NCBI RefSeq assembly: GCF_033547155.1
Contig: NZ_CP137892.1
Coordinates: forward strand, 682,001-746,000
Length of the DNA: 64,000 bases
From: Pseudomonas benzenivorans
GTDB lineage: Bacteria; Pseudomonadota; Gammaproteobacteria; Pseudomonadales; Pseudomonadaceae
Direction: 5' to 3'
The notes under the pieces are model-generated. The model was not told the DNA's origin and did not search any database. It worked only from the letters and a program-made list of their open reading frames with translations. The stretch's first letter is position 1. The number at the start of each line of letters is the position of its first letter. Shown one piece after another: positions 2,790 to 64,000 of this stretch. The translations under genes were made by a program, and so were the position numbers.

Positions 2790-3035
2790 TTAGTGCTTGG
2801 CCTCGAGCAGTTTCAGGGCTTCGCCGAGCACCTCTACGGACTGGCCGTGATTGCCGCTATTGTGCAGCTCCTCGCCTTCGGCGCGGAGTTTCTGCACTTG
2901 CGCCAGCACGGCCGGGTCGCTGGGCGGGTTGCTTTGCAGCAGGGCATCGATCTTCGCCATATCCGCAGGACAGTGGGCGGCCCAGAGCGGGGCGCTGAGC
3001 AGGGCGGCGGCGAGGAAAGCGACTAGGCGGCGCAT
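2790..3035 (-). CDS. Small secreted/periplasmic hypothetical protein
   Basis: 81 aa. The N-terminus is a clear Sec signal peptide (MRR, a hydrophobic run, then a likely cut after PLWAA). The mature part is about 61 residues, helical and charged, with one Cys right after the cut (HCPADM) and a C-terminal half resembling a single TPR-like helix pair (HNSGNHGQSVEVLGEALKLL). The gene has GGAG-type sequence upstream of its ATG and stands alone between the sensor kinase and the lactate operon. I do not recognise a named family. A single mature Cys near the N-terminus without a lipobox argues against a lipoprotein. Confidence 0.65.
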   Translation of the reverse strand: MRRLVAFLAAALLSAPLWAAHCPADMAKIDALLQSNPPSDPAVLAQVQKLRAEGEELHNSGNHGQSVEVLGEALKLLEAKH

Positions 3036-3165
3036 GGTGTGGCTCCTTCAGGGAGTGGGACTTTCAGTATAGAAAGTGCCGCACGGGGCCCAGGGCCGCT
3101 GGTCTGCTTTCCCTGGCCGGCCCCGTATCGCGCGGCCAGGCTAGGCGTCGCGTTGGCTGTACCTG

Positions 3166-20786: not shown

Positions 20787-20825
20787 AAAAGCGGGGTGAC
20801 GGTCGATACGTCATCCCGCTTTTTT
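20787..20825 (+). terminator. Strong Rho-independent terminator in the dapB-carA gap
   Basis: AAAAAGCGGGGTGAC (20787-20801) pairs with GTCATCCCGCTTTTT (20811-20825), one G-U wobble, 9-nt loop, T5 at the end. It lies 113 bp after dapB and 44 bp before carA. It may simply end dapB transcripts or act as an attenuator if the carA promoter is upstream of it. Confidence 0.85.
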
Positions 20826-20868
20826 ACAATCTGCGTTTGCTTCAAGCCTTGATCGACGGGAGGTCTTC

Positions 20869-22005
20869 TTGACTAAGCCAGCCATACTCGCCCTTGCTGA
20901 CGGCAGCATTTTTCGCGGCGAGGCCATCGGTGCCGATGGCCATACTATTGGAGAGGTGGTGTTCAATACCGCCATGACCGGCTATCAGGAAATCCTCACC
21001 GATCCCTCCTATGCCCAGCAAATCGTCACCCTGACCTACCCACACATCGGCAACACCGGCACCACGCCGGAGGACGCCGAGTCCAACCGGGTCTGGGCCG
21101 CCGGCCTGATCATCCGCGATCTGCCGCTGATCTCCAGCAACTGGCGCGACAAGCAGCCGCTGGACGAATACCTCAAGGAGAACGGTACCGTCGCCATCGC
21201 CGGCATCGATACCCGCCGCCTGACCCGCATCCTGCGCGAGAAGGGTTCGCAGAACGGCTGCATCCTCGCCGGCGCCGATGCCACCGAGGAAAAGGCCCTG
21301 GAGCTGGCGCGCAGCTTCCCCGGCCTCAAGGGCATGGACCTGGCCAAGGTGGTCAGCTGCAGCGAGCCCTACGAGTGGCGCGAGAGCACCTGGAACCTGA
21401 AGGACGACAGCCATCCGCAGATCCCGGCGGCCGAGCTGCCCTACCACGTGGTCGCCTACGACTACGGGGTCAAGCTGAACATCCTGCGCATGCTGGTGGC
21501 GCGCGGCTGCCGCCTGACCGTGGTGCCGGCGCAGACCCCGGCCAGCGAGGTGCTGGCCCTGAGCCCGGACGGCGTGTTCCTGTCCAACGGCCCGGGCGAT
21601 CCCGAGCCGTGCGACTACGCGATCCAGGCGATCAAGGACGTGCTGGAGACCGATATCCCGGTATTCGGCATCTGCCTCGGCCATCAGCTGCTGGCCCTGG
21701 CCTCCGGCGCCAAGACCCTGAAGATGGGCCACGGCCACCATGGCGCCAACCACCCGGTGCAGGACCTCGACTCGGGCGTGGTGATGATCACCAGCCAGAA
21801 CCACGGCTTCGCCGTGGACGAGAGCAGCCTGCCGGGCAATGTCCGCGCCATTCACAAGTCGCTGTTCGACGGCACCCTGCAGGGCATCGAGCGCACCGAC
21901 AAGGTCGCCTTCAGCTTCCAGGGCCACCCCGAGGCGAGCCCCGGCCCGCACGACGTCGCGCCGCTGTTCGACCGCTTCATCGAAGCCATGGCCAAGCGCC
22001 GCTAA
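20869..22005 (+). CDS. carA: Carbamoyl-phosphate synthase small subunit
   Basis: 378 aa glutaminase subunit that feeds ammonia to CarB for carbamoyl phosphate (arginine and pyrimidine synthesis). N-terminal CarA domain ([26 protein letters not shown]), then class I glutamine amidotransferase with the nucleophile Cys269 in [12 protein letters not shown] and the His/Glu pair in [13 protein letters not shown]. The start is a TTG at 20869 with GGGAGG 5 bp upstream; no ATG gives the family N-terminus, and as I recall TTG is also used in P. aeruginosa. It is 36 bp from carB. Confidence 0.96.
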
Positions 22006-39137: not shown

Positions 39138-39287
39138 CCGTAGCGCGGGCCTGGGGTTTCGGCTCTGGTCCGCGTGTATCGAGGGTGGCTGTTAATAGGC
39201 ACGGTCATACCTCACTTAAAAACACGGGAAGCGATTCCCGGCCTATTGCGACTGCTTCGGCAGTTGCCTTACTGAGAGGATGCCCCC

Positions 39288-39557
39288 ATGGCACTCAGCG
39301 TTGAAGAAAAAGCCCAGATCGTAAACGAGTACAAGCAAGCTGAAGGCGACACCGGTAGCCCGGAAGTGCAGGTTGCCCTGCTGTCGGCCAACATCAACAA
39401 GCTGCAAGGTCACTTCAAGGCCAACGGCAAGGACCACCACTCCCGTCGTGGTCTGATCCGCATGGTAAACCAGCGTCGTAAGCTGCTGGATTACCTGAAG
39501 GGTAAGGACACCACTCGTTACAGCACCCTGATCGGTCGTCTGGGTCTGCGTCGCTAA
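39288..39557 (+). CDS. rpsO: 30S ribosomal protein S15
   Basis: 89 aa, standard length. Signature region [24 protein letters not shown] and the [18 protein letters not shown] motif that binds 16S rRNA. The 150-bp leader contains small inverted repeats (for example CGGGAAGCGATTCCCG at about 39226-39241), which could take part in S15 autoregulation. GAGAGG lies before the ATG. Strong terminator follows. Confidence 0.98.
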
Positions 39558-57452: not shown

Positions 57453-57935
57453 TCAGCCCAGGCGCTCCAGGCCGACGAAGGGGCAGGCGGCGAGCAACTC
57501 GCTCAGGCAGCGGCCATCCGGCAGGCGCAGCTCGGGGGCCAGTTCGGCCAGCGGGTAGAGCACGAAGGGCCGGGCATGCATGTGGTAGTGCGGTACGCAC
57601 AGGCGCGGCTCGTCCAGGGTGCGCTGGCCGAACAGCAGGATGTCCAGGTCCAGGGTGCGCGGCCCCCAGCGTTCGGCCTTGCGCGTGCGCCCCTGGTTCA
57701 GCTCTATGGCCTGCAGGGCGTCGAGCAGGGCCAGGGGGGCGAGCGCGGTGTCCAGCGCGGCCACGGCGTTGACGTAGCGCGGCTGGTCCGCCGGGCCGAG
57801 CGGGTCGCTGGCATAGAAGGACGAGGTGGCCGCGAGCCGCGAGTCGGGCAGCTCGGCCAGGGCGGCGAGAGCGCCGCGCAGTTGCTGCAGCGGTTCGGCC
57901 AGGTTGCTGCCCAGGCCGATGTAGACCCTTTCCAT
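57453..57935 (-). CDS. folK: 2-amino-4-hydroxy-6-hydroxymethyldihydropteridine diphosphokinase
   Basis: 160 aa, HPPK. It transfers diphosphate from ATP to the pterin, giving the FolP substrate. Motifs: YIGLGSNLAEP at the N-terminus, FYASDPLGPADQPRYVN, and the signature RWGPRTLDLDILLFG, with PHYHMHARPFVLYPL after it. ATG 57935 overlaps the pcnB stop by one base (TGATG), so it is coupled to pcnB. folP itself lies 28 kb away in the ftsH run. Confidence 0.96.
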   Translation of the reverse strand: MERVYIGLGSNLAEPLQQLRGALAALAELPDSRLAATSSFYASDPLGPADQPRYVNAVAALDTALAPLALLDALQAIELNQGRTRKAERWGPRTLDLDILLFGQRTLDEPRLCVPHYHMHARPFVLYPLAELAPELRLPDGRCLSELLAACPFVGLERLG

Positions 57936-59335
57936 CAATCGTTACCGGGCTTGGCCGTGCCTTCGCCGGCGCCGCGTTTGCGCCGGCCGCCACTGCGCTT
58001 GCGCTTACGCGGCGCACCGGGGCCGTCTTCCTTGCCGCTGAGGTCGCGGATCATGCTGCGCCGCTCGCTGTCGCTGGCGTCCTGATAGGCGGTCCACCAG
58101 TCGCCCAGGCCGCCGGTCTGCTCGCCCGCGCTTTCGCGCAGCAGGAGGAAGTCGTAGCCGGCGCGGAAGCGCGGGTTCTCAAGCAGCAGGTCGGCGCGTT
58201 TGCCGCTGCGCCGCGGCAGGCGCTCCTGCATGTCCCAGATCTCGCGGATCGGTAGGGTGAAGCGCTTGGGAACGGCGATGCGCTGGCACTGTTCGCTGAT
58301 CAGCTCGTGGGCCGCTTCCTGCATCGCCGGGATCGGTGGCATGCCGCGCTCCTGCAGCTTCAGTACGCGGGCCGGCAGCGCCGGCCAGAGCAGGGCGGCG
58401 AAGAGGAACGCCGGGGTCACCGGCTTGCCCTGCTGGATGCGCAGGTCGGTGTTGGCCAGGGCGTTGTGGATAAGGGTATCGGTGTAGTCCGGGTTGTGCT
58501 TGAGCGCCGCGGCACTGGCCGGGAACAGCTGGCCGAACAGGCCGTAGTCCACCAGCAGCTCGTAGGTGTAGACCGCATAGCCGGCGAGGAACAGCTTGAG
58601 CACCTCGTCGAACAGGCGCGCGGCGGGAATCTCGCCGAGCATGGGCGCCAGCTTGTAGATAGGTGCGGCGCTGTGTTTCTCGATGTCGAAATCCAGCTTG
58701 GCGGCGAAGCGCACCGCCCGCAGCATGCGTACCGGGTCTTCCTGGTAGCGCTGGGTCGGGTCGCCGATCAGGCGGATCAGGTGGTTGCGGATGTCGTGCA
58801 CGCCGTGGGCGTAGTCGAGGATGCGTTCGCTGCCCGGGTCGTAATACAGCGCGTTGATGGTGAAATCGCGGCGCTGGGCGTCGTCCTCCAGGCTGCCGTA
58901 GACATTGTCGCGCAGGATGCGTCCGCTCTCGTGGCGCGACGCCCGCGGATCGTCGTCCTCCTCGTCCTGGGGGTGGTTGGCGCGGAAGGTGGCCACCTCG
59001 ATGATCTCGCGGCCGAAATGCACGTGCACCAGCTTGAAGCGTCGGCCGATCACCCGGGCGTTGCGGAACTCGGCGCGGACCTGCTCGGGCGTGGCGCTGG
59101 TGGCGACGTCGAAATCCTTGGGGTCGAGGTCCAGCAGCAGGTCGCGCACGCAGCCGCCGACCAGGTAGGCCTGGTAGCCGGCATTCTGCAGGCGCTCGAC
59201 CACGCTGATGGCATAGCGGCTGATGTCCCCGCGGTGGATCGGGTGCTGACGGTTGCTCAGCACTTCGGGGGTGCTGTGCGATTGTTTCGCGCGGCGCAGC
59301 GGGGAGCGTAAAGACTTGAACAGCTTTTTCAGCAT
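57935..59335 (-). CDS. pcnB: Poly(A) polymerase I
   Basis: 466 aa. Adds 3' poly(A) tails that promote RNA decay and control plasmid copy number. Nucleotidyltransferase core AYLVGGCVRDLLLDLDPKDFDVATSA, the RRDFTINALYYDP segment and the RMLRAVRFAAKLDF helix; a basic tail (RKRKRSGGRRKRGAG) near the C-terminus likely binds RNA. The frame opens at GTG 59344, but ATG 59335 (MLKKLFKSL) is the family start. It lies after crcZ on the same strand. Confidence 0.95.
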   Translation of the reverse strand: MLKKLFKSLRSPLRRAKQSHSTPEVLSNRQHPIHRGDISRYAISVVERLQNAGYQAYLVGGCVRDLLLDLDPKDFDVATSATPEQVRAEFRNARVIGRRFKLVHVHFGREIIEVATFRANHPQDEEDDDPRASRHESGRILRDNVYGSLEDDAQRRDFTINALYYDPGSERILDYAHGVHDIRNHLIRLIGDPTQRYQEDPVRMLRAVRFAAKLDFDIEKHSAAPIYKLAPMLGEIPAARLFDEVLKLFLAGYAVYTYELLVDYGLFGQLFPASAAALKHNPDYTDTLIHNALANTDLRIQQGKPVTPAFLFAALLWPALPARVLKLQERGMPPIPAMQEAAHELISEQCQRIAVPKRFTLPIREIWDMQERLPRRSGKRADLLLENPRFRAGYDFLLLRESAGEQTGGLGDWWTAYQDASDSERRSMIRDLSGKEDGPGAPRKRKRSGGRRKRGAGEGTAKPGND

Positions 59336-59464
59336 GGGAGGCACTGTGTGACGGAATGACTGGCCAGAACGGGTGATGGCCGCGAGAGTGGCGCGGATTC
59401 TAGCATCGAGTCGGGAGATGGTGTAGGAAGCGGCGGGAGAACGGCGTGCTGCGCGGGGTAGAAG

Positions 59465-59838
59465 CTACTGGGGGAGCCTAGGCTCCCCCCCAAGTAGGTG
59501 CGTGCTTCGTTTTTATTGTTATGGCGAACGTGTTGTTCTTGTTGAGGTGTTCGCTTGATCGGGTCAGCGACCCGGGGACAAGCTCCCAAGCCGGGAACCA
59601 ATAGCAAACGGATTACTTTGGATGCTGACGCTACCTTGATCATTCCATGACCCAACCAGTTCAGGAGCTGCCTCGTGGCAGTTTTATTGTTCTCGGCCTG
59701 GTTGTGGGGCGAACCCCAAAGGCAATTCCGTTCCAAAATGATCAGTTAGCTGCGCCTCCGCCCTGTTGTTTTTGTTGTGCTGGAGCCGATACGTCTTATT
59801 TTTATTGTTTTGGGTCGTGCTTGTTATTGTTGTTGTGC
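59465..59838 (-). ncRNA. crcZ: CrcZ-type small RNA, Hfq/Crc antagonist
   Basis: This 690-bp gap between cbrB and pcnB holds no convincing gene but carries the hallmarks of CrcZ, in its known place. On the minus strand it starts GCACAACAACAATAACAAGC, just after a sigma-54 promoter. At least six A-rich CA-type sites (AANAANAA) occur, at 59821-59834, 59796-59811, 59766-59776, 59684-59691, 59533-59540 and 59510-59520; these are the targets of Hfq with Crc. A GC hairpin at 59470-59489 is a likely 3' end. Length is about 370 nt, close to known CrcZ (about 370-410 nt). The ends are estimates. CbrB-driven CrcZ relieves catabolite repression by titrating Hfq. Confidence 0.9.
59470..59489 (-). terminator. 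Hairpin at the likely 3' end of crcZ
   Basis: GGGGGAGCC (59470-59478) pairs with GGCTCCCCC (59481-59489), 2-nt loop. On the minus strand AGTAGCTTC follows, so the T-run is missing; read-through into pcnB or processing is possible. Confidence 0.55.
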
Positions 59839-59847
59839 GCTAGAGAG

Positions 59848-59863
59848 AGCAGGACTCGTGCCA
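59848..59863 (-). promoter_or_regulatory. Sigma-54 promoter of crcZ
   Basis: On the minus strand TGGCACGAGTCCTGCT: GG and GC are exactly 10 bp apart, matching TGGCAC-N5-TTGCW at nearly all positions. The start expected 12 nt downstream is near 59838. This agrees with RpoN-dependent activation by the NtrC-type regulator CbrB. Confidence 0.9.
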
Positions 59864-59920
59864 TTTTTTTAGAGCCCTTTAAAAACAAAGACTTACTAGG
59901 TTTCTGTGGCGTGCGGCGGC

Positions 59921-59958
59921 AATAAAAAAGCCGGGTCTTCGTTACCGATAGACCCGGC
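59921..59958 (-). terminator. Terminator of cbrB
   Basis: On the minus strand GCCGGGTCT (59958-59950), 11-nt loop, AGACCCGGC (59938-59930), then TTTTTTATT. A GTTAC pentamer lies in the loop DNA (59941-59945). Confidence 0.9.
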
Positions 59959-59962
59959 CTTT

Positions 59963-59986
59963 GTTACGAGATGTCGATTGGGTAAC
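59963..59986. promoter_or_regulatory. Putative CbrB upstream activating sequence
   Basis: GTTAC (59963-59967) and GTAAC (59982-59986) form an inverted repeat with a 14-bp spacer, at about -125 to -148 from the predicted crcZ start. As I recall, this is where CbrB binds at crcZ in P. aeruginosa. Sequence-specific assignment is by position and symmetry only. Confidence 0.65.
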
Positions 59987-60035
59987 GGTTTTAGGGAACC
60001 TTTCGCGTGCTGTCCTTGTCGGCGCTACTGGCCAC

Positions 60036-61463
<1,428 letters not shown>

Positions 61464-61497: not shown

Positions 61498-64000
61498 TCA
61501 ATTCGCTATGGACGTCGCCTCGACATGCCGCGGCAGGGTCACCCGGATGCGGGTGCCGCGCTGGTGCTCGGGGTCGGCCGGGCTGTCGATTGTTATCTGT
61601 CCATAATGCTCCTCCACGATGGAATAGACCAGCGCGAGGCCGAGGCCGGTGCCCTTGCCGACCTCCTTGGTGGTGAAGAAGGGTTCGAACAGGCGATCCA
61701 TGATCGCCTTGGGAATACCGCTGCCTTCGTCCTCGACTATGAGGTCGACGGTGTGCTCGGAGGCCTCGCTCTTGACCCGGATCGCCGCGCCCGGCGGGGA
61801 GGCGTCGCGGGCGTTGGACAGCAGGTTGATCAGCACCTGGGCCAGGCGTTGGGCGTCGCCTTCGGCCCAGTGCTCGGGGTCGCACAGGTTGAAGAACTGC
61901 ACCTCGACGCTGCGCCGATTCAGCGCCAGCAGGCCAATGGCGTCCTGTGCCACCTGGGCCAGGGACACCGGCTCGTCGGTCTGCAGGTGGGTGCCGGAGT
62001 GGGCGAAGCTCATCAGCGACTGGACGATGCGCGAGACCCGCTTGGTCTGTTCGAGTATCTGTTCGCTGATCTCGGTCAGTTCACCGTCGTCTTCGCGTTC
62101 CTCGCGCAGGTTCTGCGCCAGGCAGGCGATGCCAGTGATGGGGTTGCCGATCTCGTGGGCCACCCCGGCGGCCAGGCGGCCGATGCTGGCCAGGCGTTCG
62201 GAGTGCACCAGCTTGTCTTCCAGCAGCTGGGTCTCGGTGAGGTCCTCGACCAGCAGTACCAGGCCGCTGTTGCCGGGCGCCAGCGGCTCGTCGATGGCCG
62301 CCTTGTGCAGGTTGAGCCAGCGCACCTGGCCGTCCAGCTTCAGCTGCTGCTTGTGCAGGTGCTGGTCGGGCAGTTCGATGAAGCGGGTGAGCAGGCCGAG
62401 CCAGGGCTCGCCGAGGGTGGCCAGGCGCGAGCCGACCACGCGCTGCGCGGGAATCTCGGTGAGCTCCTCCATGGCCCTGTTCCACATGAGGATTTCCTGG
62501 TCCTTGGCCAGCGAGCAGACGCCCATGGGCAGCTCCTGCAGGGTCTGGCGGTGGTAGCGGCGCAGGGCGTCGAGCTCGGCGGCCAGGCCGGTGAGGCGCG
62601 AGTGGTAGTCCTCCAGGCGACTCTCGATGAAGTGGATGTCCTCGGTGACGTAGCTTTCGCTGCCGGCCTTGTAGGGCAGGAAGGTCTCGACTATGTCCTG
62701 GGCCACGCTGGGCCCCATCAGCCCGGAGAGGTTGGCCTCGATGCGGTCGCGCAGGCGGCGCAGGGCGTAGGGCCGGCCTTCGTCGAAGGGCAGGTGCAGG
62801 TCGCGCAGGGCCTGCTCGACCTCGCGCTGGGCGGTCTTGGCGCCCAGGGGCTTGGCCAGCTGGGCGGCGAACTCCTGGGGCGACAGGGCCAGCAGCTCGC
62901 GACGTTGCGGGCGGCGCACGTTGTCCACCGCGCAGGCCTCGGCGGCGCTCTTCTCCTCGGGGCTGGCCTCGGTGAACAGCGAGACCAGGGTGAACACCAG
63001 CACGTTGACCGCCAGCGAGCCGATCGCGGCGAAGTGCCAGCTGCTGTCGTCCAACACGTAGACCAGGTTGAACAGCGGCAGGTAGAAGCCCTGCAGGTTG
63101 CCGACCATCGGCAGCAGCATGCCCACCACCCAGACGCCGATGCCGGCCAGCAGGCCGGCGATGAAGCCGCGGCGGTTGGCGGTCGGCCAGTACAGCACCG
63201 AGAGCACCCCGGGGAGGAACTGCAGGGTGGCGACGAAGGCGACTATGCCCAGGTTGGCCAGGTCCTGCTCGGCGCCGAGCAGGTGATAGAAGCCGAAGCC
63301 GGCCATGATGATGGCGAAGATCAGCGCGCGGCGGGTCCACTTCAGCCAGCGGTAGATGTTGCCTTCGGCCGGCGGCTGGTACAGCGGCAGTACCACATGG
63401 TTGAGGACCATGCCCGACAGTGCCAGGGTGGTGACGATGATCAGCCCGCTGGAGGCCGACAGGCCGCCGATGTAGGCGATCAGCGCCAGGGTCTGGCTGT
63501 TCAGCGCCAGCCCCAGGCCGAGGGTGAAATACTCCGGGTTGGTGGTCGCGCCCAGGCGCAGGCCGGCCCAGAGGATCAGCGGCACCGCCAGGCTCATCAG
63601 CAGCAGGAACAGCGGCAGGCCCCAGCTGGCGCTGACCATGGCCCGCGGGTTGAGGTTCTCGGTGAAGGTCATGTGGTACATGTGCGGCATGACGATGGCC
63701 GAGGCGAAGAACACCAGCAGCAGGGTGCGCCACGGGCCTTCCTGCAGCGGCGTGTGCAGGCTGGTCAGCGCGGCCTGGTTCTGCACCAGCCAACTCTCCA
63801 GCGCCTGGGGACCGTCGAACACGCCGTACAACGCATAGAGGCCGATGGCCGCCAGCGCGCCGAGCTTGACCACCGACTCGAAGGCGATGGCGAACACCAG
63901 GCCCTCGTGCTTCTCGCGGGTGGCGATATGGCGGGCACCGAACAGGGTGGTGAAGAGGATGATCAGGCCGCAGAAGGCCAGGGCCACGCGGTCTTTCACC
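61498..64000 (-). CDS. cbrA: Sensor histidine kinase CbrA with SSF transporter domain (5' part cut)
   Basis: 833 codons are visible; the start lies beyond base 64000 (CbrA is usually about 980 aa, so some 150 residues are missing). The visible N-terminal half is an SLC5/SSF sodium-solute symporter-like domain with about 9-10 membrane segments. Then come a linker (STAC-like), a PAS domain (LPMGVCSLAKDQEILMWNRAM), the phosphoacceptor box VAHEIGNPITGIACLAQNL, and the ATPase domain (NLLSNARDAS, VEDEGSGIP, GTGLGLALVYSIVEEHYGQ). The transporter part may sense or import a substrate such as histidine. It phosphorylates CbrB. Confidence 0.96.
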   Translation of the reverse strand, partial: VKDRVALAFCGLIILFTTLFGARHIATREKHEGLVFAIAFESVVKLGALAAIGLYALYGVFDGPQALESWLVQNQAALTSLHTPLQEGPWRTLLLVFFASAIVMPHMYHMTFTENLNPRAMVSASWGLPLFLLLMSLAVPLILWAGLRLGATTNPEYFTLGLGLALNSQTLALIAYIGGLSASSGLIIVTTLALSGMVLNHVVLPLYQPPAEGNIYRWLKWTRRALIFAIIMAGFGFYHLLGAEQDLANLGIVAFVATLQFLPGVLSVLYWPTANRRGFIAGLLAGIGVWVVGMLLPMVGNLQGFYLPLFNLVYVLDDSSWHFAAIGSLAVNVLVFTLVSLFTEASPEEKSAAEACAVDNVRRPQRRELLALSPQEFAAQLAKPLGAKTAQREVEQALRDLHLPFDEGRPYALRRLRDRIEANLSGLMGPSVAQDIVETFLPYKAGSESYVTEDIHFIESRLEDYHSRLTGLAAELDALRRYHRQTLQELPMGVCSLAKDQEILMWNRAMEELTEIPAQRVVGSRLATLGEPWLGLLTRFIELPDQHLHKQQLKLDGQVRWLNLHKAAIDEPLAPGNSGLVLLVEDLTETQLLEDKLVHSERLASIGRLAAGVAHEIGNPITGIACLAQNLREEREDDGELTEISEQILEQTKRVSRIVQSLMSFAHSGTHLQTDEPVSLAQVAQDAIGLLALNRRSVEVQFFNLCDPEHWAEGDAQRLAQVLINLLSNARDASPPGAAIRVKSEASEHTVDLIVEDEGSGIPKAIMDRLFEPFFTTKEVGKGTGLGLALVYSIVEEHYGQITIDSPADPEHQRGTRIRVTLPRHVEATSIAN

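Follow-up and report, generated by a model that had tools for sequence, protein, structure and literature searches.

CrcZ of Pseudomonas aeruginosa has been described as an RNA of 407 nt with six A-rich stretches able to bind the distal face of Hfq (PMC4063720). For CbrB the consensus TGTTAC-N12-14-GTAACA-N15-19-GTAACA is given in a review from 2022 (PMC8871633), and for crcZ and crcY of P. putida assistance by IHF was reported (PMC6296734). The same review names Pseudomonas and Azotobacter as the exclusive hosts of CbrAB and argues from this narrow distribution on the origin of CbrA (PMC8871633).

Here we describe the gap between cbrB and pcnB in Pseudomonas benzenivorans and the gaps downstream of cbrB in other members of the Pseudomonadales. 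The window, as the whole stretch of DNA that was analysed is called from here on, comprises 64,000 nt of contig NZ_CP137892.1. We are nearly certain of the joint reading that the locus in the window is crcZ and that, as far as sequences can tell, an A-rich decoy RNA driven by CbrB has probably long belonged to CbrAB across the order.

The crcZ Gene in the cbrB-pcnB Gap

An earlier note on this DNA had placed crcZ on the minus strand of the cbrB-pcnB gap and had named an Rfam search with the CrcZ family as a check. The search bore the placement out: positions 59836-59440 (minus strand) match RF01675 (CrcZ) end to end (model positions 1-398 of 398) with 321.7 bits (E 2.1e-89), far above the threshold of 95. 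The crcZ regulatory RNA is thus assigned to 59440..59838, with a provisional 3' end, on the same strand as both neighbouring genes. Counted from the GC of the promoter its +1 would be 59838 or 59837, in agreement with the start at about 59838 proposed before, and the Rfam match begins at 59836. The fold calculated for 59838-59440 has -124 kcal/mol (z -3.19), and none of 100 shuffled sequences folded equally well.

The sigma-54 promoter TGGCACGAGTCCTGCT (59848..59863, minus strand), which the earlier note had recognized, has an exact GG-N10-GC and is the sole match to TGGCA[CT]-N5-[CT]TGC[AT] on both strands of the window. The six motif clusters that had been noted correspond to six non-overlapping AANAANAA motifs of the Hfq distal-face type counted in the transcript (59513..59834, minus strand; 59834-59827, 59809-59802, 59776-59769, 59691-59684, 59543-59536 and 59520-59513). 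On the minus strand of the window AANAANAA occurs ten times in total, the densest 400 nt being crcZ with six, and on the plus strand seven times, with at most two per 400 nt. The 3' hairpin expected from the earlier note is present: GGGGGAGCC-TA-GGCTCCCCC (inner part at about 59489-59470) lies inside an outer stem (59461..59511, minus strand), as seen from sequence and fold, and on reading the sequence no T run was found after it.

Three CbrB subsites precede the promoter on the minus strand: F1 (CGTTAC, 59982..59987) and R2 (GTAACG, 59940..59945), both found with the subsite pattern, and R1 (GTAACA, 59962..59967), found with the pattern and in accord with the published consensus (PMC8871633). 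Together they read CGTTAC-N14-GTAACA-N16-GTAACG, which fits the consensus with two mismatches, and the pattern GTTAC-N13..17-GTAACA-N15..19-GTAAC has one occurrence in the 4.5 Mb genome. An IHF-type site, TAAGTCTTTGTTT (59883..59895, minus strand), starts 32 nt upstream of the promoter and fits the IHF consensus. Subsite R2 lies in the loop of the likely cbrB terminator (59924..59958, minus strand), which was recognized on reading the sequence by its 9-bp stem GCCGGGTCT/AGACCCGGC, its 11-nt loop and its six T; enhancer and terminator therefore share DNA. The terminator is not listed by the pattern scan, which allowed loops of 3-8 nt. The CbrB subsites and the IHF-type site, like the second genomic copy and the wide distribution reported below, were absent from the earlier note.

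The gene upstream, cbrB (60036..61463, minus strand), encodes a sigma-54-type response regulator that NCBIfam places with the NtrC type, with no listed equivalog at its cut-off; NCBIfam names neither CbrA nor CbrB nor Crc specifically, and cbrB is named by synteny and by the adjoining Rfam CrcZ match. The statement that the window holds the whole CbrA-CbrB-CrcZ module went too far, since the 5' end of cbrA, an open frame (61498..64000, minus strand), lies outside: beyond the window edge the frame continues for 162 codons without a stop, or for about 149 if counted from a plausible ATG. Downstream follows pcnB (57935..59344, minus strand), encoding poly(A) polymerase I (TIGR01942, 595.6 bits, cut-off 305.65). 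Elsewhere in the window the Rfam scan gave a match to P31 sRNA (20791-20869, minus strand, 63.8 bits, threshold 40) and one to the ribosomal S15 leader (39247-39344, plus strand, 48.5 bits, threshold 39.5).

The promoter and the six A-rich motifs agree with published CrcZ, which in strain PAO1 likewise has six. The window RNA is like CrcZ of Pseudomonas (RF01675) in position, promoter type, CbrB subsites, six A-rich motifs and full-length covariance match; it differs in that F1 is CGTTAC and R2 is GTAACG instead of TGTTAC and GTAACA, and no defining difference was found. As such the window feature is an ordinary, plain CrcZ, which in the host strain would be expressed and would titrate Hfq/Crc. 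The unannotated gap thereby gains a global regulator with its control sites marked. According to the mechanism that we propose from published Pseudomonas work, CbrB would be bound at F1-R1-R2 on a poor carbon source and, helped by a bend that IHF introduces, would drive sigma-54 polymerase at crcZ; the A-rich (ARN)n stretches of CrcZ would then occupy the distal face of Hfq, with Crc, so that catabolic mRNAs would be freed for translation and less favoured foods would become usable.

A second CrcZ-type RNA is found in the host genome at C1:4082644-4083012 (221.6 bits, Rfam), with its own sigma-54 promoter and F1/R1. The known systems with which it is to be compared are the paralogues CrcY and CrcX; the second copy is weaker (221.6 bits) and located elsewhere. 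By eye its flanks encode a Rieske oxygenase and a BCCT transporter. The plasmid search gave no match. Within the Pseudomonadaceae 192 of 198 genomes have a CrcZ match in Rfam, 188 of them above threshold.

crcZ-like Loci Outside the Pseudomonadaceae

The first relatives came from a CbrB search in named genomes: Gilvimarinus agarilyticus (L067), G. gilvus (L068), a Neptunomonas MAG (L069) and a Cellvibrionaceae MAG (L070), whose cbrB-pcnB gaps contain CbrB-type sites, a TGGCAC promoter and A-rich arrays. None of the four exceeded the Rfam CrcZ threshold, and the one match reached 36.3 bits. In the order as a whole a CbrB match with E <= 1e-150 is present in 204 of 293 genomes, from which stretches were picked for family spread. 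Of 58 loci tested for a neighbouring cbrA, 54 have a CbrA match beside cbrB, and none was found in L237, L242, L248 and L255. The 58 include ten loci from outside the order and three with Pseudomonas, Serpens or Pseudomonadaceae in their titles.

Three criteria, fixed only after the first relatives had been inspected, were applied to the gaps downstream of cbrB: a promoter deviating in no more than one position, three or more AANAANAA within 600 nt after the promoter, and two or more GTTAC/GTAAC not more than 190 nt upstream. All three were found in 78 of the 105 gaps outside the family (a number that counts L067 and L212, one locus, both positive), two in 7 and none in 20, the misses including L064 (a MAG titled Pseudomonadaceae) and L066, L157 and L165 (short stretches ending at contig ends); L239 was dropped for want of a readable gap. 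The reverse strands showed no criterion in 105 of 105 cases. Among 2100 first-order shuffles 2056 had none, 40 one, 4 two and 0 three criteria, and in the 1 kb downstream of 71 other CbrB homologues (one of which is a paralogue from Pseudomonas; nearly all come from outside the order) 60 had none, 8 one, 3 two and 0 three.

Full cases, at least one each, occur in 31 of 39 family labels; f9 and f39 have two criteria at best, and for f8, f10, f18, f35, f42 and f43 the gap scan gave none. The gene pcnB lies downstream in 65 of the 78 full-criteria loci. The nearest GTAAC, by which the -80, -90 and -69 classes were defined, is located at -78 to -82 in 49 of the 78 and at -87 to -92 in 21, about one helical turn apart. 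An IHF-type element, which was not a criterion, is found not more than 75 nt upstream in 37 of the 78 (0.9% of shuffles), at -31 to -33 in 30 and at -41 to -44 in 6.

When 20 positive loci were compared with the Rfam CrcZ model, L156 passed (102.5 bits), eight remained below threshold and 11 gave nothing at E <= 0.1; sub-threshold signals at the same places outside the family reached 68.5, 54.7 and 36.3 bits. Because scores outside the family mostly stay below the RF01675 threshold, we call these loci crcZ-like rather than CrcZ. Pseudomonas CrcZ has a core, AAYTGA..TTTGG, that could be recognized again in labels f2, f34 and f20 and in a single f16 locus; beyond these, the presumed relatedness is based on place and control elements. 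The crcZ-like loci share with CrcZ the place after cbrB, the CbrB-type sites, the sigma-54 promoter and the AANAANAA array, but differ from it in RF01675 scores mostly below threshold, in an early GACCTGGRTGGGG hairpin in some and in a tandem arrangement in some.

A Promoter Model and Unused Genomes

From 37 of 44 loci with the commonest spacing, five of the 37 belonging to Pseudomonadaceae, a sequence model of the promoter region with 114 positions (model R1) was built, in which the constancy of the subsites is imposed. When 80 genomes, including 5 that had been examined before, were scanned with it, matches appeared in 78, up to 15 in each, many of which cover the IHF/sigma-54 part only. Since the model also matches elsewhere, it is the place beside cbrB that carries the argument. 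In 49 of the 58 unused genomes for which the place of cbrB was listed, a match lies not more than 1.6 kb downstream of cbrB on the same strand, and in 48 of the 58 the match beside cbrB is the best among the matches listed. Among the matches listed, none lies at such a place in G355, G396, G280, G333, G356, G432, G469, G426 and G463. The test is the only out-of-sample evidence, its genomes coming mostly from families already seen.

In G206 (f10) the model matches 2.4 kb after cbrB, where a full-criteria locus lies directly before pcnB (L313, about 2290-2900). With the locus directly before pcnB and cbrB 2.4 kb away, the RNA appears to have stayed with pcnB while cbrB became separated. For f8 a locus was found in none of four gaps and in none of three further genomes with a listed cbrB place, and in G396 (f8) none was found in the 4 kb downstream of cbrB.

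Tandem matches to model R1 occur in 9 of the 58 genomes, two matches in 5 and three in 4. In L307 cbrB is followed by three units, and CbrB-type sites, an IHF-type site, a promoter and an array are present in every one of them; two of the three are seen to end in hairpins with T runs. Tandem crcZ-like units, two or three, were also found downstream of cbrB in L292 and L293 and in G325, G369, G389 and G446. In 18 of the 78 loci, from nine labels (e.g., L169, L198, L203 and L216), GACCTGGRTGGGG with a variable hairpin is located about 45-175 nt after the start, its constancy being partly imposed because the search expression mostly required GACCTGGRTGGGG. Such loci would give rise to short transcripts, and where an RNA ends with GACCTGGRTGGGG this element may have a further function, e.g., in base-pairing.

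Crc and the Boundary of the Order

Crc was named from the rph- and pyrE-like ORFs that were recognized by eye on its two sides (NCBIfam: exonuclease III), and Crc of the host genome was searched for in 80 genomes. Outside the family 46 genomes have the full locus; a Crc match with E <= 1e-50 is present in 40 of these, weak in two and absent in four (two of them f28). A Crc match was also found in 13 of 17 genomes with cbrB but without a locus in the gap (two of the 17, G198 and G206, have the locus elsewhere), and in f8 in 4 of 4 genomes tested despite the lack of a locus. The presence of Crc was therefore rejected as a predictor of the locus: 40/46 versus 13/17 does not discriminate, and the association is weak. 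Where Crc is missing, Hfq alone may be the target.

The CbrB subsite pattern was likewise rejected as a genome-wide finder. Besides the host it gave 3 matches in 19 genomes (G198, G246 and G433), which is chance level, the reversed control pattern giving 4 matches in 3 genomes. The match in G198 (L268) proved to be a real locus, on another contig, and the matches in G246 and G433 are without promoter or array.

In the class, 229 genomes were sampled; CbrB matches with E <= 1e-150 turned up in 13, and 10 of the 13 lie outside the order. The module was found in 0 of these 10 CbrB-like loci outside the Pseudomonadales. In one stretch from outside the order (L277, about 2840-3100) a CbrB-like gene is followed by GTTAC/GTAAC sites and a weak sigma-54-like promoter, located before a frame that by eye encodes an acetyl-CoA synthetase (acs-like); there CbrB may control acs directly.

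Alternative Explanations

Two other readings of the gap in the window were considered. ORFs of 135 aa (59329-59736, minus strand) and 92 aa (59647-59925, plus strand) would allow the gap to hold small protein genes, the A-rich pattern being incidental; given the full-length CrcZ covariance match and a fold better than 100 of 100 shuffles, we regard this as very improbable. The other concerns the Rfam match 'P36 sRNA' (RF01679; 59932..59992, minus strand, 61 nt), which passes its threshold of 36 by 1.1 bits (37.1 bits) and could stand for a separate functional sRNA, P36 having been named among the differentially regulated ncRNAs in an RNA-seq study of P. aeruginosa (PMC3902932). The 61 nt, however, are made up of all three CbrB subsites and the terminator of cbrB. 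Among 99 genomes drawn from the Pseudomonadaceae 46 have a P36 match with E <= 0.01, 31 of them above threshold, and in each of the 30 best-scoring loci, which were read, the crcZ promoter with its CbrB subsites begins 127-130 nt after the P36 start. Because of this fixed distance we took P36 as enhancer plus terminator, which makes a separate sRNA unlikely; the RNA-seq mention could stem from cbrB 3' ends or from read-through. The match in the window is accordingly read as a DNA control element and terminator and not as an independent sRNA, and the sequences suggest that Rfam P36 is the crcZ control element and cbrB terminator counted as an sRNA, a family that may be mislabelled.

For the loci outside the family the question is whether the pattern could be due to chance or base composition. 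The motifs are short, and one criterion did turn up in 8 of the 71 control gaps and 40 of the 2100 shuffles, two in 3 and 4, respectively; but all three were found in no control, the positions of GTAAC recur from locus to locus, and the genomes outside model R1 agree, so that we consider chance practically negligible. If the pattern is real, the A-rich stretches elsewhere could still belong to read-through or leader RNA of cbrB or pcnB instead of to Hfq decoys, a cbrB-crcZ co-transcript having been described for Azotobacter vinelandii (PMC6292655) and the order-wide loci outside the family being known from sequence alone. By eye, however, many of the RNAs end in a hairpin at a good distance from pcnB, and each tandem unit that was read has CbrB-type sites, an IHF-type site, a promoter and an array of its own. 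Read-through or leader RNA therefore seems quite unlikely, and decoy RNAs with their own promoters remain our preferred reading.

Distribution and Meaning

Since the same arrangement recurs across the Pseudomonadales, the decoy RNA has probably been associated with CbrAB there for a long time. It is very likely, in our judgement, that CbrAB together with an A-rich decoy RNA controlled by CbrB, sigma-54 and IHF is ancestral to the order. Counting 31 labels from the gap scan and f10, the putative decoy locus is present in no fewer than 32 family labels other than Pseudomonadaceae, in apparently long, short and two- or three-copy tandem forms, most of which the Rfam CrcZ model misses. The decoy RNA is thus probably not a speciality of the Pseudomonadaceae. 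Outside the family the loci would be transcribed and their RNAs would bind Hfq.

At the level of sequence comparison the survey contradicts the exclusive-host statement in PMC8871633. A literature search on CrcZ with Marinobacter, Cellvibrio, Gammaproteobacteria or Pseudomonadales, covering few of the subscription journals, gave no report of CrcZ outside the Pseudomonadaceae. Transcripts of cbrA-cbrB, not assigned to a taxon, were reported from seawater communities with growth of Alteromonadales and Oceanospirillales (PMC5073097).

CrcZ itself was already known; the part that appears new is the extension of the arrangement to the order. The survey supplies species in which the proposal can be tested, natural variants in copy number and length, and a basis for a broader RNA family. 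If the proposal is true, catabolite control by titration of Hfq would be the default in the Pseudomonadales.
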